Positions 50,472-60,093 of a stretch of DNA of 64,000 nucleotides are shown piece after piece; the first letter of the stretch is position 1; each line of letters starts with the position of its first letter. The notes beneath the pieces are model-generated. The model had not been told where the DNA came from, did no database searches, and worked only from the letters and a program-made list of their open reading frames with translations. Location of the stretch: NCBI RefSeq assembly GCF_012913485.1, contig NZ_CP051774.1, positions 4,650,001 through 4,714,000 on the forward strand. Direction: 5' to 3'. The translations under genes were made by a program, and so were the position numbers. The DNA comes from Luteolibacter luteus. GTDB lineage: Bacteria > Verrucomicrobiota > Verrucomicrobiia > Verrucomicrobiales > Akkermansiaceae.

Positions 50472-51086
50472 ATGAGTAACAACATTTTCCAGAAGATCAC
50501 CGGCAACAAGCCAGGTTCCGAGCCCAGCGCCCCCGTTCCGACTCCGGCCTACAATCCCGCTCCGACCCCTGCGCCCGCCGCCTATGAGCCGGTCGCTCCT
50601 GCCGCCGCCGCTCCGGTCCAGCAGGCCTCTGCTGCCAGCGCCGCCCCGCAGCGCCCCGTCGGTCCTTCCCGCAATGTCCTGAGCTCGGATGTCGAGATCA
50701 AGGGCACCGTGAAATTCACCAATGACCTCGTCGTCGATGGCCGCATCGAGGGCGAGATCCAGTCCGATGGAAATCTCACCGTTGGCGAAAACGCCCGCCT
50801 CAAGGCCGAGATCAAGACCGGCACCGTCGTCGTCTACGGCAAGGTCCACGGCAACATCATCGCCAACGAAAAGGTCGAGCTGAAGGCCACCGCCGAAGTC
50901 GTCGGCGACATCAAGGCCAAGGTCCTCTCCATCGAGCCTGGCGCCATCTTCGTCGGTAAGTCGAATGTCGGCACCCCGTCGACCCCTGCCGCCGCCGCCA
51001 AGCCCGCTGCCGCAGCAGCCCCCGCCTCCGCTCCTGCCAAGCAGGACCCGCCGAAGCAGGGCAACCTCCAAGGCGTGAACCCGTAA
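50472..51086 (+). CDS. Bactofilin
   Basis: 204 aa. A Pro/Ala-rich head (1-68) and tail (about 165-204) flank a single bactofilin (DUF583) domain, a right-handed beta-helix seen as RNVLSSDVEIKGTVKFTNDL, VVDGRIEGEIQSDGNLTVGE and VVVYGKVHGNIIANEKVELK. Bactofilins self-assemble into cytoskeletal filaments that affect cell shape and stalks. It may be cotranscribed with the TPR gene and is followed by a terminator. Confidence 0.93.
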   Translation: MSNNIFQKITGNKPGSEPSAPVPTPAYNPAPTPAPAAYEPVAPAAAAPVQQASAASAAPQRPVGPSRNVLSSDVEIKGTVKFTNDLVVDGRIEGEIQSDGNLTVGENARLKAEIKTGTVVVYGKVHGNIIANEKVELKATAEVVGDIKAKVLSIEPGAIFVGKSNVGTPSTPAAAAKPAAAAAPASAPAKQDPPKQGNLQGVNP

Positions 51087-51123
51087 TCGGGTCCCCCTCG
51101 GCACCAATCAATCATCTCTAAAG

Positions 51124-51163
51124 CCCGCCCGGCCCCTCCAAAAAGGCCGTGGCGGGTTTTTTC
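51124..51163 (+). terminator. Rho-independent terminator of bactofilin
   Basis: CCCGCC (51124-51129) pairs with GGCGGG (51151-51156), with an inner GGCC / GGCC pairing, then TTTTTTCTTT. It lies 37 nt after the stop. Confidence 0.85.
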
Positions 51164-51190
51164 TTTGCCCCAACCCTCGCTACCGCCCCG

Positions 51191-51449
51191 CTCCTTCCCG
51201 CACGTAATCCCCCCTTGAGGGGGGGGCCACCGGTCCGGCTCTGAAAGGTAGGGCGACGCGGCCCGCGGCGCTCATCCTGCACGGCCTAACAACAAAGCCG
51301 ATCTCCCCCCACACCCCACCGCCTTCCCCGCACCCAATCCCACCTCCAGACCACCCCACCAGTCCGGCTCTAAGAGGTAGGGCGACGCGGCCCGCGGCGC
51401 TCATCCTGCACGGCCTAACAACAGCGCCCATCTCCCTCCACACCCCACC
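51191..51449. repeat. Two-copy tandem repeat, period 129 bp
   Basis: A unit carrying GTCCGGCTCT, GGTAGGGCGACGCGGCCCGC and GGCGCTCATCCTGCACGGCC is present at 51233-51320 and again at 51362-51449 with few differences and no shift. The C-rich stretches before each copy (51191 and 51321) are also related, giving a whole unit of about 129 bp. No ORF or RNA is recognised in it. It lies between the bactofilin terminator and the defence-type operon. Confidence 0.85.
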
Positions 51450-51506
51450 TCGCGAGCACGCCTGACATCGCCTGCGAATCGCGAAACCATTCCGACTCTC
51501 CGGAGT

Positions 51507-51760
51507 GGCGCTTTCCAAAGCGCCATAACGCGGACGGGCTTCCTCCCGGAAGCCCCGTGGGCCTCATCCCCCCAATGCCTCCGCCCCCTCTGCCTTTCCT
51601 CTCTGATCTCTGATCTCATCCATCCTCTCTCTTATCTCAATTCCTCTCTTCCACCTCCAATGCCCCAACGGGGCAGCCGTAGAAAGCCCGGGGTCAGCGC
51701 GGAACGCGCTCAACCCCGGGTAAGCAAGCCCCCACAAACCTCCGTGCCCTGAAGGGGCAC
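51507..51760. repeat. Cluster of REP-like hairpins
   Basis: Five near-perfect inverted repeats stand in 250 bp: GGCGCTTT / AAAGCGCC (51507-51524), GGGCTTCC / GGAAGCCC near 51536-51556, TGCCCC / GGGGCA (51661-51675), CCCGGGGT / ACCCCGGG with a nested AGCGCG / CGCGCT (51687-51720) and GTGCCC / GGGCAC (51744-51760). Such stacked GC hairpins are typical of REP/BIME elements spread by RAYT transposases. No transposase is present here. Apart from this and the tandem repeat, 51164-51929 holds no gene. Confidence 0.6.
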
Positions 51761-51889
51761 ACGGAACTCACGCCTTGATTGGAACGGAATGGGACAGAAG
51801 CCGATCCTTCCGCCCGCGGCCTTTTTTCTCTGATCTGAGCTCCAGCCTACCCCGTCCCTTGGCCATTGCGCACCCGCCAATCCGCTACC

Positions 51890-51910
51890 GAGCTGTATCG
51901 GATTCAGCTC
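51890..51910 (-). terminator. Hairpin after the six-gene operon
   Basis: GAGCTG / CAGCTC arms (9-nt loop) 20 nt past the stop of the last operon gene. No T tract follows, so terminator function is uncertain. Confidence 0.3.
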
Positions 51911-51929
51911 CGGCCCCTTATCGAGGACT

Positions 51930-52508
51930 TCAGCCAATCTCATCTGAATACCTGATCAAAACGTCAGTCGCATATGTGAGATAAGCCGGATCAGGGTTCA
52001 CATTGTCGCCTATTACAGCCGCCTTTACGTAAGGATAAGCGCGAGGTGCCACCATGGAAGCTGCTGTGACATAATTGGATTGTGCTCTATCGTTATTGTG
52101 GATCATGTCATTGCGACGGCATCGAATCTCGTCTAAATCTTCAACTAGTGAAGAAGAGATGATAAGTCTGCTTTCGATTCTGCGTTGCAGCTGACCAAAC
52201 GTTCCCGAAGACAATTCTGAAAGTGCAGTCAAGCGTACTACCAAACGACTCTCAAACTCGGCAATAAGTGCTAATAGCAGGTCACGCGGAAGTCGGCGGT
52301 GAACGAAATCCTCAAGCGCAGACATAGCATCGGAACCCGGTTCGCTCGCGAGAAGACTCGTCACCATTCCGACGGCGGGCACATTAGTGTATTCCAAGGT
52401 GACGTCGACTACCTCAGGCGATCGTGTGTAAAGGGCACACGCCGCTTTGATGCGCCAGTAGTTCCGCAGAATATCCAAGGCGACGTTCTGAAACTGGGCA
52501 GGGTTCAT
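51930..52508 (-). CDS. HEPN-type protein, candidate RNase effector of the defence operon
   Basis: 192 aa, mostly helical by composition. Residues 126-137 read DEIRCRRNDMIH: Arg132-Asn133 followed by four residues and His137 form the R-x4-6-H motif, with a polar residue after Arg, that defines catalytic HEPN ribonucleases. The preceding helix (SRLIISSSLVEDLDEI) fits the fold. HEPN proteins are common toxin or abortive-infection effectors. It is the last gene of the operon and its start overlaps the AAA+ ATPase stop by 4 bp, so the two proteins are probably made in fixed ratio. MltR-like proteins share some features and are an alternative. Confidence 0.65.
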   Translation of the reverse strand: MNPAQFQNVALDILRNYWRIKAACALYTRSPEVVDVTLEYTNVPAVGMVTSLLASEPGSDAMSALEDFVHRRLPRDLLLALIAEFESRLVVRLTALSELSSGTFGQLQRRIESRLIISSSLVEDLDEIRCRRNDMIHNNDRAQSNYVTAASMVAPRAYPYVKAAVIGDNVNPDPAYLTYATDVLIRYSDEIG

Positions 52509-53668
52509 TGACCTTGGCGGATGAGGCGGATAAAGCCTTTCATGAGCGGGCTGGTGAAGGTGTAGTTTCCGTGTCCGGCTCGTGTTAGGATCTGGGCCCG
52601 ACTGGGAAGAATGAGGCCTCTAAGAGCCGAGCCGACGGCCTTTCTAGACGGTGCTCCCAGGGGGCGGCCGATGGCGATCTTGGCCGCCTCTTCAACGACC
52701 TCCGCGATGTTGTTGTTCTTCGCGGTCAGGTTGGCCATCCCCCAGATCACTCTCTGATGGAGACGGCTTCCGTTGGAGGATCTTATTGCAAGCTCGTATA
52801 TCTCGCGCAGCTGCTGATCCGCGTCGCTGGCCGCCGCGATACAGCCCCGAACAAGATCTTCGGTTTCGACTATGGGTGATCCAACCTTCAGAGCTGCTTT
52901 GGCGGCATTGTTGGCCATCAAATGAAGATAGTAGGGCATTCGGTCACAGAGGCGTAAAATCTCCGATGTCGCCTCCTCGGAGAACTTGAGGCCGAGAGGC
53001 TCCAGTACTTTTTCTCCATGTCGCAAAATACCGTCTAGCTCGTCTTCTTGCATTCGATCCAACTGCAGTTCGCGAATGGCACGATGGTTCGATGCGTGGC
53101 CGCGTAGCACGGCACCAGCAGTTGCTGCGACGCCAACCATGACCAAAGTGAGAAGGGGCTTGTTCGTGGCGGCGTTCTTGACTAGTTCAGCAACGGCTGA
53201 GATTGCGTCGGTGTCTCTTACTCTGTCGAGTTCGTCGAGTATAATACAAAGCGGCTTGTTGTCGGGAATGATGAATAGGAGATCATTACCTGTCATGTTT
53301 CCAAGAGAAAGCGCGGTACCAGCGACTCTTAGCGTGTTCCTTTGGGCGTCAAAAACGAGCCGCTCAGGATCAGATTTTTGGATCTGTAGTGCCGCAGTCC
53401 GCATTAGCTGATTGAAATCGGAATTCTGCTCGCAGAAGACCTTTACGCGCTCCACGCCGTTGGTAGAAACGTAAGCAAGGGAGGTTTTGCCGCAGCCGCG
53501 CTCACCATAAACGACCAAATGGAGGCCGGGAACTGCGAGGGCATCCCGTACACGCTCCCTTTCGTTTTCGCGACCGGAAAAGTCACTAGGATCGTCGATC
53601 GGAATGTGGGGGCGAAAAGCTGCGTTTACTAAGCTTTCTTGCTCTTGAGTCAGCATTCTTGAGGGCAT
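52505..53668 (-). CDS. AAA+/STAND-like ATPase of the defence operon
   Basis: 387 aa. Residues 27-42 (PSDFSGRENERERVRD) are the box often preceding Orc1/Cdc6- or STAND-type ATPases. Walker A is GERGCGKTS (55-63), Walker B CIILDELDRV (141-150, with Asp145-Glu146), and LVMVGVAA (about 173-180) fits sensor 1. The C-terminal third (RLHQRVIWGMANLTAKNNNI ... GNYTFTSPLMKGFIRL) looks like a winged helix. It could sense infection and control the coupled HEPN protein. Gap of 58 nt to the EcoRII-N gene upstream. Confidence 0.85.
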   Translation of the reverse strand: MPSRMLTQEQESLVNAAFRPHIPIDDPSDFSGRENERERVRDALAVPGLHLVVYGERGCGKTSLAYVSTNGVERVKVFCEQNSDFNQLMRTAALQIQKSDPERLVFDAQRNTLRVAGTALSLGNMTGNDLLFIIPDNKPLCIILDELDRVRDTDAISAVAELVKNAATNKPLLTLVMVGVAATAGAVLRGHASNHRAIRELQLDRMQEDELDGILRHGEKVLEPLGLKFSEEATSEILRLCDRMPYYLHLMANNAAKAALKVGSPIVETEDLVRGCIAAASDADQQLREIYELAIRSSNGSRLHQRVIWGMANLTAKNNNIAEVVEEAAKIAIGRPLGAPSRKAVGSALRGLILPSRAQILTRAGHGNYTFTSPLMKGFIRLIRQGQ

Positions 53669-53726
53669 ACTTCAGGGGGGGCGCTTTTGGATGCGATACT
53701 TTGCGTGTGGGCCTCATTCTTAGCAT

Positions 53727-54164
53727 TCATGACAAGTCGTCGGTATCCAGAATTATCCAGTTTCCGCTCAACTTGAGAACTTTTCGACCACTTGGAAAAG
53801 TTGTCAGGCCTTGGTGCTTCCGTCTGTAATCGACACCGTAGAATCGACCTGTAGGCCGCTTGAAAACTACGGTGTCTCCTTCCTTGAGATCGTAATGACG
53901 TAGGAACTCCGTCATGCTTGTCAGGCGATATTCGTTTCTGGTTCCACCAAACAGCGCATTATTGTAATAAATATAATTGAAGGTCCACTCTTCTCCGGCA
54001 GCGTCTCGCAGATCGATCACGCAGCGGGGATTCTTGATTGAAGGATCCAACTTTGGGAAGAATTCAAGTCTCGCGATATTTTTAGGGATAAGTAGACCAG
54101 CTTGGTGGGCATGGGTTTCTCCGGTATCATTGGCGCTAAGCACCTTTTCTACGGTGGATCTCAT
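53727..54164 (-). CDS. Stand-alone EcoRII-N (B3-like) DNA-recognition domain protein
   Basis: 145 aa that align over their whole length to the N-terminal effector-binding domain of restriction enzyme EcoRII: LSANDTGETHAHQAGLLIPK (9-28) and YYNNALFGGTRNEYRLT (66-82) mirror EcoRII's LSANDTGATGGHQVGLYIP and IYYNSRHFGKTRNEKRIT. This is the DNA-binding pseudobarrel shared with plant B3 domains, which in EcoRII reads the 5'-CCWGG site. The catalytic PD-(D/E)xK half of EcoRII is absent. It should give the operon its DNA-site recognition. The ATG overlaps the SNF2 helicase stop by 4 bp. Confidence 0.87.
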   Translation of the reverse strand: MRSTVEKVLSANDTGETHAHQAGLLIPKNIARLEFFPKLDPSIKNPRCVIDLRDAAGEEWTFNYIYYNNALFGGTRNEYRLTSMTEFLRHYDLKEGDTVVFKRPTGRFYGVDYRRKHQGLTTFPSGRKVLKLSGNWIILDTDDLS

Positions 54165-56050
54165 GATGATTTGATTCGGGGGCTGAGCTTGAGCGCGTTT
54201 AATATGTCGACCAGATCATCCGCGTCTCCGGTTGTTCCGATAACCGCATTCTCGGCCAAAATTCGCTTGCGTATCATGCGATCATAAATGACTTCCTCTA
54301 CTGTGTCGGCGTAGAAGAGTCGGTGAATGGTGACGGGCCGAGTTTGACCTCTGCGATGGGAGCGAGCTGAGGCTTGGTCTTCAACAGCTGGATTCCATTC
54401 GAGGTTGTAGTGGATTACATGGTTTGCCGCCGTGATGTTTAATCCAACTCCAGCCGCTTTAGGGTTAAGAATGAGGGCGGCGGAGCCGAGGATTCGGGTG
54501 AACTCATCGACTGTCGACTGGCGGTCTGTCACCGCGACGCTGCCGTTAATTAGCCATGTTGGCACACGGAATGTACGCTTAATCTCTCTTTCGAGTAGCC
54601 TCGCAGTGTAGTTGAAAGAGGTGAATATGATGACCTTGGAGTTGGTTGTGAAGACTTCCTCTAAAATTTCAAAGGATCTTTCGAGCTTGGGGCTACAGGC
54701 AATCGCTAAGCTGACATCACGCAGCTTGCCAACGGACCAAGGATGAGCGCAGAACATTCGGAGGTGCACAAGAGCAGCTAATCCAGGAGCTTCGGGAGCC
54801 TTAGCTGCTGCCTCTTTAAGTATCTCATCATATGCTTCGGAAGATCGGTCGTCCATGGTGATTGCTATTGGCACATCTATACGTGGTGGGAGATCGGCCG
54901 CCACATCGCAGATACGTCTTCGTAGCATAATTGGGGAGACGAGTGATTCGAGTTCTTTGGCTCCCGTCTCCGTTTCGGGAAACTGCATTTGAAACTCGGA
55001 CAGTGTCCCGAGGTGCCCCGGGAGTGCGTAGTCGAATAGCGACCAAAGATCTTTAAGATTGTTTTCAACCGGCGTCCCGGTGATCGCGATGCCAATGCGC
55101 CTTGGCAGTTCTTTGGCGCGTTTTGTGCGTCGAGCGGTTGGATTTTTTATATTTTGAGCTTCATCCAAGGCCACCACGTTCCAAGGGACCACTCGGAATA
55201 TGGAGATGTCTCCAGCCATGGTTTCGTATGAGGTAACGGTAATGTGAGCTGCGGCCAATTGGTCTGAAAGTCCAGTGCGGCTGGGGCCGGCATGGACAAG
55301 CACCTTCAAGGACGGTGCAAACTGGGTGATCTCCCGTCGCCAGTTCTCAGTCAAAGTCGCCGGACAGACGACCAAATTTGGCTGCCGGTTGGCCTGAACT
55401 TCTGCTAGAAGAAGTGCGATGACTTGCAGCGTCTTTCCAAGACCCATCTCATCGGCGAGAATGGAGCCGACGCCTTGGCGTGCCATAAAATTCAGCCATC
55501 GTATACCAACTTGCTGATAGTCATAAGGAGTGGCTTCTAGACCAGAGAGAGTCAGCGTCGGAATACTTTTAGAGAGAGTTCGGGCAGCCAATTGCTCAGC
55601 GGCATGGTCGACAACGAGGAAATTTGGCGCGCGTTTAAGTATTTCGAGATATTGTCCAATAGTCAGTGCCGCTGGATTCGAAATTTGAGATTGAAGCATC
55701 ACATTTGAAAATTCCGAAAGCGTGTTTTGAGGGAGCGGATACCAGATTTTATCGATGATGACGTAGTCCAGTGTGGCTGGTGCGGTAGTACTTCCGATTT
55801 TTCCTGCTAGTAAGCAGCCTATCGAGGGCTCACCGGGAGTGGATGCATCTACGGTAATCAGGATTGCGGGACTGGCGGGAGTGTCGGAAAACTGCAATCC
55901 TAGGTCGTAAAATTCCTGCGAAGCAATCGCTTGGCCCCGAAGGGTATCCTTGCCCTCAAAAATAATCTCATATATTTCCTCTGCTGTAGGGGGGGGCTGT
56001 TCCGTGAGTGAGGAGGTCACTATCGTTGTGCCTTCAAGCTTGAGTTTCAT
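54161..56050 (-). CDS. SWI2/SNF2-family DNA helicase/translocase of the defence operon
   Basis: 629 aa. After a divergent N-terminal region (1-165) all SNF2 motifs are present: I DEMGLGKT (200-207), Ia VVCPATLTENW, II DEAQ (296-299), III ITGTPVEN (323-330), IV IIFTSF (about 474-479), V AAGVGLN (532-538) and VI QASARSHRRGQ (559-569). The enzyme should use ATP to move along or remodel DNA. No nuclease domain is fused. In known paraMORC restriction loci a superfamily II helicase is a regular partner of the GHKL ATPase. Translationally coupled to the EcoRII-N gene. Confidence 0.93.
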   Translation of the reverse strand: MKLKLEGTTIVTSSLTEQPPPTAEEIYEIIFEGKDTLRGQAIASQEFYDLGLQFSDTPASPAILITVDASTPGEPSIGCLLAGKIGSTTAPATLDYVIIDKIWYPLPQNTLSEFSNVMLQSQISNPAALTIGQYLEILKRAPNFLVVDHAAEQLAARTLSKSIPTLTLSGLEATPYDYQQVGIRWLNFMARQGVGSILADEMGLGKTLQVIALLLAEVQANRQPNLVVCPATLTENWRREITQFAPSLKVLVHAGPSRTGLSDQLAAAHITVTSYETMAGDISIFRVVPWNVVALDEAQNIKNPTARRTKRAKELPRRIGIAITGTPVENNLKDLWSLFDYALPGHLGTLSEFQMQFPETETGAKELESLVSPIMLRRRICDVAADLPPRIDVPIAITMDDRSSEAYDEILKEAAAKAPEAPGLAALVHLRMFCAHPWSVGKLRDVSLAIACSPKLERSFEILEEVFTTNSKVIIFTSFNYTARLLEREIKRTFRVPTWLINGSVAVTDRQSTVDEFTRILGSAALILNPKAAGVGLNITAANHVIHYNLEWNPAVEDQASARSHRRGQTRPVTIHRLFYADTVEEVIYDRMIRKRILAENAVIGTTGDADDLVDILNALKLSPRIKSS

Positions 56051-56183
56051 GAGTGCTTCTCTTGGCTACAGGCTTGAACGAATCGAGTGATGGGATCGAT
56101 TTTGTATCCGAATCTCATCTCTGAAGATGATATGGTGGACTTCAATGTAGACATGCCAATGGACAGTGGGGCATCATGATCAT

Positions 56184-56717
56184 CTATGGTTCAATAGTGC
56201 CGTGGGGCCATATTGCCATGGATTTTTCCTCGCTGGGCGGCCTAGGGTTATACCGTTGAGAATTCATCTCGGAGGCGTCACCTTTAAATGCTAGCACGTT
56301 GGCAACAGCGTTTTCAATTCTGACCAAGATTGTGGGCAATTCAACGGCTGGCGCGATAACGTCCCCGAGAAGTTGGGTCATTTGGTTGGGGAGAACCTCT
56401 TTCAAAACGACTCTTTGCCTCCTCAGGATCAGGTTGAGTCTCATTCTCTTAGAGGACCAAATGGCGGGCCCCTGCCAACTGAAATCGTTGCCGATTACAG
56501 GGAGTGTGAACTCCTTTTGTGTGGCGGCAGCGATTGCTAGAGATGGAAAAGCTGCTAGAGCCTTGGCGTCTGCGTTCCCTCTTCGCTCGATGAGGAGCCT
56601 ACCAAACTTGCCGATCCCGCTTGTTTGGGGGGCGAGACGGTTCTCAGCGGAGAGATGTGCCATTACCGGCAAGCCCAAGCGACGAGAAATGAAGGTTTCC
56701 GCGTGTAACCAGTGCAT
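56184..56717 (-). CDS. Protein of unknown function in the defence operon
   Basis: 177 aa starting 6 nt after the GHKL ATPase stop, in the same direction. The middle (FTLPVIGNDFSWQGPAIWSS, KRMRLNLILRRQRVVLKEVL) alternates strands and helices and looks like a soluble domain; the last 25 residues (QRYNPRPPSEEKS...) are likely disordered. I recognise no domain or catalytic motif. A plus-strand ORF at 56299-56763 covers the same DNA, but operon spacing favours this strand. A gap of 133 bp separates it from the SNF2 gene. Confidence 0.5.
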   Translation of the reverse strand: MHWLHAETFISRRLGLPVMAHLSAENRLAPQTSGIGKFGRLLIERRGNADAKALAAFPSLAIAAATQKEFTLPVIGNDFSWQGPAIWSSKRMRLNLILRRQRVVLKEVLPNQMTQLLGDVIAPAVELPTILVRIENAVANVLAFKGDASEMNSQRYNPRPPSEEKSMAIWPHGTIEP

Positions 56718-56722
56718 TTATA

Positions 56723-58318
56723 CTAAAATTCTGGCTCAGGTAGGTCTTGGACTAGTTTCTTGAGGTTCCGCGAGACTTCGTAGCGAAGGTCCTCGAATGT
56801 GGTCTTGGTATCCTCGCTTATGCAGTTTAACTCAGCGACGCTTAGCCCCCAAAGTAACGCATCCATCCCCTGTATAGTTACTCCTTCCGATAAATTTGGA
56901 ACATAGACCTTCGTATAGTAAGGGTGCCCACGGTTGATGTTGACCGCACAATGGCCGTCAATAAACGCAGGAGTCCAAAGGAGTCCGTCGTCGATGGATT
57001 CAACAGTTTGAATATGGACTTCGTCTCTTCTCGTTGATGCGCCGATTTGAAGTTTAAGTCGAACCTCGCCGAGTCGATTTACAAGAACTGCTTCACCCGA
57101 AGCTGCGTCTAAGCTCTTAATGTTGGGTTTAATGACTTGATCCTCTTTAGAAGATATGTTCCGATTAGATCCGTCATGAGCGTTTTGAGAGGTCTTCTTG
57201 ACACTCTCTCGAGCACCTTTTCGGGAAAGCAAATCAGCTGCGCGTCGTCTCGGGGTGAGAAATTCTTTTACGAATACAGAAATCGCCTCATCCAAGATTA
57301 TCTGTGATTTTTTGATGTCTATTTGGAACGCTTCGTCGAGACGATGGTCGAAGGAAAACTCGATGCGCAAGAGTGTCATGTGCGTCTCTCTAGCAAACAA
57401 TCCGAGCCAGTCGGGGCCATGGGTAAAGCGGTTTTCTCGGTATACGTAGATGCCTTGATTTGCCGGCGCGACTCGCGCCCTTTCCTTCGCTTCCTCGGAA
57501 GAGAACTCCTCCTTTCGTGGCAAAATGAATGCCCTAATGCGAAATTCGGCGACGCTACCGCCCGGCATACTCACAGAAATATTCTCGTCCCCCACCAGTT
57601 CTGATTCTCCAACACAAAATGGGTCCCACGCTTCAACTGGGGTGCCATTGAGAGCAATTTTGATGTTGGTGGCGCGATTGTCAGCTGGATCCAAGAACCT
57701 TTGATAGACTGTCGCGAGGTGCTGCCGGAGCCCGTTGGGGCCATCAATGATCTTTTCGAAGGCCTTCTTTGCATAGGGCCCTGTTGGATCCTTATAAGCC
57801 TTCATAATCCGGTCGATCTTTTCCCAGATCACAAGCGTCCCGGCTTTGTCCGCGAGGACCTCGTTGAAAAACTTGCTCTCTGAGGGCGAAGATTCGCCGA
57901 TCGTGATTTCCCATTTGCCGCTGATTTTGACGTGGTCGATGTCCCAAGCGGCCGTGATCAGAGTGTCTTCTGGGTTGGCTCTAGACACGACCACCAGACG
58001 GCGGCAGAAGGCGGTCGATCCTGTTTTAAGACCAAGTCCGAATTTGCCCAAGCTGGCCTTCGATGTCCGGACTTGTGATCCGTAGGTCATCGCGTTTAAG
58101 ACGCCATCCTTTGTCATGCCAACTCCGTCATCGTAGATTCGAAGTGAAATGTTGCCGCGGTAATCCTGTTTCAAAAATATTGAAATGTTTTTTGCGTCTG
58201 CGGCGATTGAGTTATCTACAACATCAGCAACGGCGGTATTGAATTGGTATCCTGTGTCGCGAAGGCCTTCGATAACACGAGCTGCGTCGGGTGGTAGTGG
58301 ATGTAGTACCTGACTCAT
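56723..58318 (-). CDS. MORC-like (paraMORC) GHKL-S5 ATPase of the defence operon
   Basis: 531 aa. The Bergerat-fold ATPase is clear: N-box AVADVVDNSIAADA (29-42), G1 box DDGVGM (63-68) and G2 GKFGLGLKTGS (91-101). The S5-type transducer shows NQGIYVYRENRF (287-298) and IDIKKSQI (333-340), as in MORC and prokaryotic paraMORC proteins. In MutL/MORC the general base of the N-box is Glu (E-L-x-x-N); here Asp32 takes its place. The C-terminal 150 residues, after a charged linker, are unassigned. Such ATPases dimerise on DNA and clamp it. It is the first gene of the six-gene operon, so the promoter should be just upstream of 58318 (TTGAGA then a poor -10 is all I see). Confidence 0.9.
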   Translation of the reverse strand: MSQVLHPLPPDAARVIEGLRDTGYQFNTAVADVVDNSIAADAKNISIFLKQDYRGNISLRIYDDGVGMTKDGVLNAMTYGSQVRTSKASLGKFGLGLKTGSTAFCRRLVVVSRANPEDTLITAAWDIDHVKISGKWEITIGESSPSESKFFNEVLADKAGTLVIWEKIDRIMKAYKDPTGPYAKKAFEKIIDGPNGLRQHLATVYQRFLDPADNRATNIKIALNGTPVEAWDPFCVGESELVGDENISVSMPGGSVAEFRIRAFILPRKEEFSSEEAKERARVAPANQGIYVYRENRFTHGPDWLGLFARETHMTLLRIEFSFDHRLDEAFQIDIKKSQIILDEAISVFVKEFLTPRRRAADLLSRKGARESVKKTSQNAHDGSNRNISSKEDQVIKPNIKSLDAASGEAVLVNRLGEVRLKLQIGASTRRDEVHIQTVESIDDGLLWTPAFIDGHCAVNINRGHPYYTKVYVPNLSEGVTIQGMDALLWGLSVAELNCISEDTKTTFEDLRYEVSRNLKKLVQDLPEPEF

Positions 58319-58385
58319 ATGGTTGGGGATGGGGTGGATTTTCGTAGAGCGCTTTCAGAGTCTCTCAATTTTCGGTTTCGAGGAT

Positions 58386-58601
58386 TCAGAACCCGCTAGG
58401 AATTGGGGAGAGTGGAGATGTTAGCTCGATGCTGCGACAGGGCTCTCCACTAGATCCGCATCGATCATTGAGTGGGATGTCGCTTTCGCGGCTCACATTC
58501 GAACTCGCCGAACTATAGACGAGCAGTGGTGCCACCAAGCGCAGACGGCTGGAGGCGGGCCAGAGCTTCCGAAGGAAGGCTTGGGTTTCCAGGTTGGACA
58601 T
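58386..58601 (-). pseudogene. Possible 5' gene remnant at the right border of the operon
   Basis: 71 codons from the ATG at 58601. The first 30 residues (MSNLETQAFLRKLWPASSRL, then RLVAPLLVY) are protein-like and GC-rich in codon use; after about 58510 the sequence turns A/T-richer and the translation (SSGEPCRSIELTSPLSPIPS) loses protein character. This suggests a resident gene cut by insertion of the neighbouring operon, or chance. No Shine-Dalgarno sequence is seen. Tentative. Confidence 0.3.
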
Positions 58602-58791
58602 GGTGGCGGTTCTGAGCGGGAAGCCTAACGGGCGGAGAGGGGGAGTGAAGGACGAATATGCGTAGGGTCGGGGGATCAAAAAAGGACCACGGAAAGGAGT
58701 TCCGAAAAGACCGCCTCCGTGGCAAACTCTCCCCATGTCGTTTTCCTTTCCTTCTCCACCCCGGCCAAGCGGCCCCGATCCCACCCGGTCA

Positions 58792-58830
58792 CCTGTTATT
58801 TTCCCTGTTATAACAGGCGGAACATGCACC
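58792..58830. repeat. Palindromic intergenic repeat, copy 3
   Basis: Arms CCTGTTAT (58792-58799) and ATAACAGG (58810-58817), 10-nt loop, followed by CGGAACATGCACCTG, like the tail of copy 1 (CGGAACAGGTGCCTG). Confidence 0.8.
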
Positions 58831-58904
58831 TGCGGCGCTGGATTTTCACCGGCTCCCAGCGATCCGCGGGGGAGGGGACTTGTCCGGCTTCTCAGCAGCC
58901 CGGC

Positions 58905-58950
58905 CGCCTGTTAATTTCCCTGATATAACAGGCGGAACAGGCACCGGAAT
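58905..58950. repeat. Palindromic intergenic repeat, copy 4
   Basis: Arms CGCCTGTTA (58905-58913) and TAACAGGCG (58926-58934) with loop ATTTCCCTGATA, followed by GAACAGGCACCGG. It is nearly identical to copy 1 over 40 bases. Confidence 0.8.
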
Positions 58951-59154
58951 CACCCCGATTTCCCACCGGATCGCCCCTCCTTCCACCCTCCGCCCGGTGC
59001 GCGATGAAAAATACGGGAATCCAGCGCCTCCTACCCCGCGTTCGACCCCCTCGGATCCACTCTAAGTCACTGATTGGCTGATGATTGGAAGATTGATGGT
59101 GGGTCATTTTACCTCCGCCATTGCCCTCCCGCCCGGCCTACCCTAGTTTCCGCC

Positions 59155-60093
59155 ATGCCCACCGCCGCTCTCGACCTGAAGGAGTCGATCCTCGCCCTGA
59201 AAAAGGAACGGAATGCCGTCATCCTGGCCCACAATTACCAGACCGGCGATATCCAGGACCTAGCGGACTATGTCGGCGATTCCCTCGGCCTCGCCTACCA
59301 CGCGAAGGAGACTGATGCCGATGTGATCGTCTTCTGCGGCGTCCACTTCATGGCGGAGACGGCGAAGATCGTGAATCCTACGAAGGTCGTCGTACTTCCG
59401 GACAAGGATGCCGGTTGCTCGCTGGAGCAATCCTGCCCCGGCCCCGAACTGGAGGCCTTCCTGAAGGCGAATGCGGAGAAGAACTACTACGTCATCGCCT
59501 ATATCAATTGCTCGGCCCACGTGAAGGCGCTCTGCGATGTGATCTGCACCTCCGGCAATGCGATCAAGATCGTGAACAAGGCCCCGGCGGATCGCCCGAT
59601 CCTCTTCGTGCCGGACGCGAACCTCGGTGCCTGGGTGATGGAGCAGACCGGCCGCAAGATGGATCTCTGGCAGGGCTCTTGTTACGTCCACGTCGAGTTC
59701 ACCCGCGACTCGATCAACCGCATCAAAGCCGAGCATCCCGGTGCCCTCGTGGTGGCTCATCCGGAGTGCACCCAGGCCGTGCGCCTGCTGGCCGATGAGG
59801 TCTGCTCGACCGAGAAGATGATCACCTTCTGCAAGAATGCCCCGGTGAAGGACATCATCGTGGTGACCGAGAGCGGCATGCTCCACCGCCTGCGGAAGGA
59901 GTGCCCGGACAAGAACCTCATCGCCGGTCCCACCGACCGTTGCGCTTGTGCGGACTGCCGCTACATGAAGATGAACACGCTGACCAAGCTCCACGCCTGC
60001 CTGGAGAACCTCAGCCCCCAGGTGGAGATCCCCGAGGACATCCGCTCCCGCGCCGAAGCTCCCTTGCTGCGCATGCTGGAGCAGTCCAAGTAA
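59155..60093 (+). CDS. nadA: Quinolinate synthase A
   Basis: 312 aa from the ATG at 59155 (the frame opens at 59074, but the extension is not conserved). NadA condenses iminoaspartate and dihydroxyacetone phosphate to quinolinate in NAD synthesis and holds a 4Fe-4S cluster. Marks are ILAHNYQTGDIQDLADYVGD, VHFMAETAKI, YINCSAHVKA, VAHPECTQAV and RCACADCRYMKMNTL, with the cluster cysteines in the second, fourth and fifth. nadB and nadC are not in the window. Convergent with xerC. Confidence 0.95.
   Translation: MPTAALDLKESILALKKERNAVILAHNYQTGDIQDLADYVGDSLGLAYHAKETDADVIVFCGVHFMAETAKIVNPTKVVVLPDKDAGCSLEQSCPGPELEAFLKANAEKNYYVIAYINCSAHVKALCDVICTSGNAIKIVNKAPADRPILFVPDANLGAWVMEQTGRKMDLWQGSCYVHVEFTRDSINRIKAEHPGALVVAHPECTQAVRLLADEVCSTEKMITFCKNAPVKDIIVVTESGMLHRLRKECPDKNLIAGPTDRCACADCRYMKMNTLTKLHACLENLSPQVEIPEDIRSRAEAPLLRMLEQSK

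Follow-up and report, generated by a model that had tools for sequence, protein, structure and literature searches.

Known MORC operons and the locus of Luteolibacter luteus

Operons in which a MORC gene stands beside genes for SWI2/SNF2 proteins and HNH or EcoRII-like nucleases were described by Iyer, Abhiman and Aravind in 2008, and the available part of that paper adds a VP1/RAV DNA-binding protein, cytosine methylases and Vsr to their make-up (PMC2292703). A tested parallel is provided by CglI and NgoAVII, in which a C5-methyltransferase, a B3-like reader and an ATP-hydrolysing subunit of superfamily 2 (SF2) jointly cut DNA (PMC4267653). HEPN proteins, including fusions with paraMORC, were proposed in 2013 as second-line effectors of restriction-modification (R-M) systems (PMC3710099, excerpt). 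The locus analysed here is a run of six genes in Luteolibacter luteus, located within a stretch of 64,000 nucleotides (the window; contig NZ_CP051774.1, positions 4,650,001 to 4,714,000), which a preliminary description had taken for a new six-gene defence system consisting of a MORC-like ATPase, an unknown protein, SNF2, EcoRII-N, AAA+ and HEPN proteins. Our analysis replaces this system by a widespread restriction module predicted in 2008, here in a decayed state, and a separate ATPase pair. With a probability of about three in four, the locus represents a relict, nuclease-less MORC module next to an independent pair formed by an AAA+ ATPase and a putative HEPN protein, both acquired at one insertion hotspot.

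Pfam profile matches confirmed the MORC-like ATPase, SNF2, EcoRII-N and AAA+ assignments, and the six minus-strand open reading frames (ORFs) were present at 51930-58318 in the positions described. The MORC-family GHKL-S5 ATPase P0005 (56723..58318, 531 amino acids) matched HATPase_c_3 at 1.4e-28, and in PDB the MORC alignment matched MORC2 structures best. The protein retains the N box and the DDGVGM and GKFGLGLK motifs. P0005 grouped with the relatives L029-L032 in a FastTree phylogeny (support 1.0). It was counted as carrying the MORC motif GhXhhpXXRhl, which is complete in the relative L018; two positions of the motif are changed in P0005, the last of them (T) lying outside the aliphatic class. 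Among 103 near-invariant columns, defined as those conserved in at least 95% of the relatives, P0005 deviates at six (median 1), which ranks it fourth of 83 sequences, and two of these deviations fall in the MORC signature (GIYVYRENRFT vs GIYIYRENRLI in L018).

The SNF2-family helicase/translocase P0004 (54161..56050, 629 amino acids) matched SNF2-rel_dom at 4.9e-57 together with Helicase_C, and so carries the SWI2/SNF2 part of the described operons. Their VP1/RAV (B3) part is represented by P0003 (53727..54164, 145 amino acids), a stand-alone EcoRII-N/B3 DNA-binding protein (EcoRII-N 6.8e-17, B3 4.6e-8) which matched the solved EcoRII structures 1na6/3hqf at E ~1e-8, keeps the stretch IYYN..FG.TRNE.R.T of solved EcoRII, and has a RAV1 B3 structure among its PDB matches. 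Pfam detected no EcoRII-C catalytic domain in P0003, only EcoRII-N and B3, and the protein is therefore not an EcoRII type IIE endonuclease. It shares the EcoRII-N effector domain with that type (PMC4081073), and a full EcoRII is encoded in the same genome, whereas the reader in the window is a separate protein lacking EcoRII-C.

The closest likeness is to the second group of MORC operons of Iyer et al., which combine the same MORC GHKL-S5 ATPase, SWI2/SNF2 protein and VP1/RAV (B3) protein; the relatives of the window locus also carry, like those operons, an HNH nuclease, Dcm and Vsr (PMC2292703, available part). Because MORC operons with a VP1/RAV protein were already described there, the stand-alone EcoRII-N reader, which had been put forward as a novelty, is not new. 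The window locus differs in that its HNH gene is broken, in that neither C5-methyltransferase nor Vsr is encoded at the locus, both being frequent in the class but not universal, and in that the AAA+/HEPN pair is added. The module is thus a decayed, not a working, member of the MORC/SNF2 R-M operon class.

The HNH nuclease gene

The HNH gene at this locus is present but broken. Its front is P0006 (56184..56717, 177 amino acids), the "unknown protein" of the preliminary description, and its reading as a new component was rejected. P0006 covers only the N-terminal domain of the HNH family, and its frame ends ahead of the HNH domain, before the first pair of Cys residues. A relic of the HNH catalytic core was found at 56065..56149 on the minus strand, inside the apparent intergenic gap, in two reading frames that both differ from that of P0006. 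The relic scored 27.4 bits, a value equalled by none of 300 dinucleotide shuffles (shuffle maximum 22.2), and ranked first in the 64-kb window for the HNH part of the profile, the next unrelated place reaching 18.9 bits; its position, order and strand were all as expected. The N-terminal domain is itself partly unalignable, and no HNH tail was found.

Four Cys residues and the HH pair are present in 78 of the 80 HNH ORFs of the relatives, the exceptions being L036, a fragment at a contig end, and L088, an additional HNH gene with a weak match. The idea that the EcoRII-N protein stands in place of a nuclease was not borne out, as in the relatives EcoRII-N accompanies the very HNH nuclease whose gene is broken here.

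Census of related MORC loci

When 288 genomes of the phylum were searched with MORC, 17 of them, the L. luteus genome included, matched at E<=0.001. Full-length relatives occurred in three other genomes (53, 38 and 37%), in which MORC is found with an HNH nuclease of ~270 amino acids, SNF2 and EcoRII-N, plus, within the stretches examined, C5-methyltransferase, Vsr or both; one of the three loci has the module genes rearranged. Scanning 84,980 genomes with the MORC alignment yielded 316 matching stretches, of which 227 were relatives. The best 80 of these 227 and the three phylum loci gave 82 distinct loci rather than 83, because L018 and L034 are one record. Genes of the relatives were called from ORFs and hidden Markov models (HMMs), each model being seeded by one to four sequences.

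In the HMM census of the 82 loci MORC was found in 82, SNF2 in 79, HNH in 79, C5-methyltransferase in 72, EcoRII-N in 63 and Vsr in 45. The 50 loci flanked by 5 kb or more on each side contained SNF2 (50), HNH (49), C5-methyltransferase (49), EcoRII-N (38) and Vsr (32). All loci missing SNF2 and nine of the 10 missing C5-methyltransferase were short stretches, but 12 of the 19 missing EcoRII-N were not, and since these 12 have full flanks EcoRII-N is, of the core parts, the one least regularly present. The exceptions with full flanks were L054, without HNH, and L052, without C5-methyltransferase. Apparently intact modules with a methyltransferase nearby occur in many bacteria and one archaeon, so that the census supplies clear targets for testing the function of prokaryotic MORC proteins.

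AAA+ and HEPN genes of the window type were found at none of the 82 other MORC loci, nor in the subset of 50 with at least 5 kb flanks. Conversely, relatives of MORC, SNF2, EcoRII-N, P0006 and P0001 were found (tblastn, E<=1e-3) at none of 77 loci bearing AAA+ relatives, 71 of them viral, five on plasmids and one in a genome. The six genes were accordingly not seen together elsewhere, and the proposal of a new six-gene system was rejected; a co-occurrence survey of homologous loci had been named at the outset as a test that could refute that proposal, and its outcome went against the AAA+/HEPN part.

Several individual loci depart from the usual layout. In L054 (11582-13551) other genes, one of them DUF6575, stand where no intact HNH gene is found, and L062 (2806-3099) has, by inspection, an HNH remnant of 97 amino acids instead of an intact HNH. 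L079 (7290-8087), a Fibrobacter locus in which no EcoRII-N was detected despite full flanks, encodes between C5-methyltransferase and SNF2 a protein of 265 amino acids without Pfam match, possibly another reader. In L045 (3275-5986) the EcoRII-N gene is interrupted by a transposase of the IS1595 type together with what inspection identified as a DNA methylase gene.

The AAA+ ATPase and the putative HEPN protein

The AAA+ ATPase P0002 (52505..53668, 387 amino acids) matched AAA_16 at 1.5e-9 and, over residues 8-384, the phage protein family PHROG 6841 at 2.5e-40. Relatives were located on 71 viral contigs and 13 plasmid records. Of the 287 other genomes of the phylum only three matched, two of them near the limit; the clear match (29%) came from a genome of the same family (L119, 7664-10548), where this distant relative is immediately followed by a gene for an anti-phage dCTP deaminase (409.4 bits in NCBIfam against a cut-off of 400). 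On a P2-like phage-plasmid (L114, 3941-5158) an AAA+ relative lies between the tum gene and the portal gene, likely a cargo site. A P0002 model built from 34 sequences had a predicted local distance difference test (pLDDT) value of 92.2; its best PDB matches were the archaeal AAA+ structures 2fna and 2qen, with template modelling (TM) scores of 0.54 and 0.57, and Orc1/Cdc6, with about 0.45-0.53, in each case at high root-mean-square deviation. No P0001 relative was found next to the 71 viral AAA+ genes (best E 1.3), and no HEPN partner there was convincing by eye.

P0001 (51930..52508, 192 amino acids) is a putative HEPN RNase, by virtue of the sequence RNDMIH, noted by inspection, which fits the HEPN RNase motif R-x4-6-H. 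A similar regular expression matches many unrelated ORFs, and the motif is consequently weak evidence. No match to P0001 was obtained in Pfam (where, like P0006, it hit no family at E<=1), PADLOC, NCBIfam or PHROG at the limits used, and no relatives were found in plasmids, viral contigs, phages, the 287 other phylum genomes or PDB. A single-sequence model was helical with a pLDDT of 43.1 and could not be used. The HEPN call of the preliminary description has therefore been reduced to one motif, with neither a profile nor a usable fold behind it.

The insertion site between bactofilin and nadA

The nadA gene was found in 17 of 18 genomes of the genus, our own included, and the site was compared in 15 other genomes, one fragmented genome being left out. 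In 13 of the 15 the distance between bactofilin and nadA was 112-943 bp, and in the other two (G178 and G295) the interval contained stretches of lower guanine-plus-cytosine (GC) content of 7.6 and 8.0 kb encoding type I R-M proteins (N6_Mtase with HsdM_N, Methylase_S and ResIII). The interval covers 51087-59073 in the window, where it holds the MORC locus, and 4510-12128 in L134 and 4786-12778 in L136, both with type I R-M genes. The site is occupied in three of 16 genomes, the window included, and each time by restriction genes. In this genus the interval between bactofilin and nadA acts as an insertion hotspot, where further defence genes may be sought. The restriction-type, acquired context that had been proposed for the six-gene run was upheld.

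Methyltransferase, Vsr and EcoRII genes elsewhere in the genome

No convincing C5-methyltransferase relic was found at 50900-59200, where the best frame-tolerant score was 18.9 bits on the opposite strand. At 1.01 Mb lies the single C5-methyltransferase found in the genome, with a helix-turn-helix domain, followed by an EcoRII-type endonuclease (EcoRII-C 9e-57, EcoRII-N 4.8e-20; L109, 7448-9963), and a Vsr gene was located at 2.37 Mb. This methyltransferase is 77% identical over 323 amino acids to that of L031 and 73% to the 132-amino-acid fragment of L029, and in a midpoint-rooted FastTree phylogeny it formed a clade with those of L029, L031 and L032 (support 1.0). The methyltransferase of L030 fell outside this clade, although the L030 MORC groups with P0005, and the methyltransferase branches were shorter than the MORC branches; because of these two points, the trees leave it only possible that the methyltransferase and the MORC module descended together as one unit. 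Among the 82 loci, 19 carried an EcoRII-C nuclease within the examined stretch. In L041 (5260-7431) a C5-methyltransferase fused to an entire EcoRII endonuclease adjoins the MORC module; when this fusion was used as query against the window only its EcoRII-N part matched, at P0003.

Proposed function and alternative explanations

In the intact relatives a CCWGG-like site is most likely recognised by the B3 (EcoRII-N) protein; the SNF2 motor would travel on the DNA, the MORC GHKL ATPase would close on it as a clamp and the HNH subunit would do the cutting, with the C5-methyltransferase shielding the host and Vsr repairing deamination damage. These biochemical steps, including the CCWGG specificity, we infer, as we do the RNase activity of P0001; the identity of the module, its usual partners, the break in its HNH gene, the lack of the AAA+/HEPN pair at the other MORC loci examined and the hotspot are what the data show. 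With a broken HNH gene and without a C5-methyltransferase at the locus, the window module can no longer cut by itself, and we regard it as a relict, or as a DNA-binding remnant at most. The AAA+ and putative HEPN proteins are most likely a unit of their own, acting in abortive infection or like a toxin, with the RNase under the control of the ATPase, whose family is also borne by phages and plasmids.

A number of observations weigh against decay of the module and separateness of the pair. The codon-position GC pattern of P0006 resembles that of the neighbouring genes. Its N-terminal domain is 23-28% identical to those of its four nearest relatives and barely aligns to that of L033, and since pairwise identity among intact HNH relatives is itself 24-58%, decay cannot be deduced from divergence alone. 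Both SNF2 and EcoRII-N appear to be under constraint, deviating at one of 88 and none of 24 near-invariant columns, respectively; together with the codon-position GC pattern of P0006 this implies that the decay is recent or that the remnant is kept for some use. No other such HNH was found in the genome by a search that had no positive control and missed P0006 itself. With an EcoRII-type methyltransferase and Vsr elsewhere in the genome, modification in trans is possible, and the AAA+/HEPN pair, which follows EcoRII-N on the same strand after only 58 bp, could be co-transcribed with the module.

That constraint and that proximity speak for an effector swap, in which the nuclease-less MORC/SNF2/EcoRII-N complex would still sense invading DNA that is unmethylated and alert the AAA+ protein; this would release the HEPN RNase, and the cell would shut down rather than cut DNA. 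R-M-linked HEPN proteins and HEPN-paraMORC fusions have been proposed as second-line effectors (PMC3710099, excerpt), and in L058 (3720-5360) a TIR-WD40 gene occupies the usual HNH place after MORC, though the contig stops there. We nevertheless consider a swap unlikely: the pair accompanies the MORC module in one genome only, which cannot show a swap, no MORC, SNF2 or EcoRII-N relative was found at the 77 AAA+-relative loci, the MORC signature deviates at two residues, and the HEPN identity of P0001 is only putative. Its more specific form, by which the module reads unmethylated CCWGG-like sites, the EcoRII-type methyltransferase 3.7 Mb away protects the host and the Orc/Cdc6-like AAA+ unleashes an orphan HEPN RNase, is slightly less likely.

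It is also improbable, to a slightly greater degree, that the module cooperates with the EcoRII-type R-M pair at 1.01 Mb as its source of methylation and cutting. The identity of the methyltransferase to that of L031, its grouping with three of the four loci with which P0005 groups and the EcoRII-C genes at 19 loci are consistent with such a split system, but HNH is kept in 18 of these 19 loci, only L054 being without it, the clade excludes the methyltransferase of L030, the fourth close relative, and the module and the pair lie 3.7 Mb apart by contig numbering. EcoRII is, moreover, known to cut without partners. Errors of sequencing or assembly typically show themselves as frame breaks; an HNH gene that is really intact is nonetheless very hard to reconcile with several defects at once (unalignable N-terminal part, early frame end, core in two frames, absent tail), for which a single error does not suffice. 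The relict MORC module with a separate AAA+/putative-HEPN pair is thus preferred.

Comparison with other defence systems

P0005 matched MzaB of the Mza system (PADLOC 6.5e-48), yet its NCBIfam score of 182 bits lay below the cut-off of 850 and no other Mza protein was found among the six, so membership was rejected. Zorya (ZorD 263.6 vs a cut-off of 1500) and DISARM (DrmD at most 90.2 vs 950) were discarded on the same NCBIfam basis, and a DpdE-like match was also given by PADLOC and NCBIfam, the NCBIfam scores being far under the cut-offs. Applied to the window proteins and eight proteins of the three related loci, PADLOC returned parts of other systems, none naming this make-up, and no named system with these parts was found in the literature, mostly outside subscription journals, among the matches listed.

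The paraMORC/HEF_HK genes resemble the MORC loci in that GHKL ATPases lie beside C5-methyltransferase, Vsr, HNH and EcoRII-C genes, but they have response-regulator-like and HK-like partners and the available part of the text makes no mention of SNF2 (PMC8011034). PrrC-PrrI, an example of HEPN second-line effectors, shares with the window a possible HEPN RNase and an ATPase beside restriction genes; it differs in that the window ATPase is Orc/Cdc6-like AAA+ and not ABC, and in that P0001 is putative and no relative of it was found (PMC3710099, excerpt).

Layout and surroundings of the locus

The 4-bp overlaps of SNF2/EcoRII-N and AAA+/HEPN were correctly described, while the spacing between MORC and P0006 is 5 nt instead of the 4 nt claimed. 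Two larger gaps, absent from the preliminary description, separate P0006 from SNF2 (133 bp) and EcoRII-N from AAA+ (58 bp), and both proved relevant. No tRNA was found within the 64-kb window, and at 50800-59300 all Rfam families stayed below their cut-offs. Direct-repeat pairs of 94 nt and 47 nt lie just beyond the island ends (51227-51449 and 58784-58945); no further copy of the 31-base core of the left repeat was found in the genome at <=3 mismatches, and no repeats common to both island ends were reported. The described richness in A/T was evident, with a GC content of 0.50-0.56 in 1-kb windows over 52001-59000 vs ~0.60-0.65 on both flanks, and the neighbours do look like housekeeping genes, namely, as named by inspection, lpxB and bactofilin on one side and nadA, a XerD-type recombinase and ruvB on the other.

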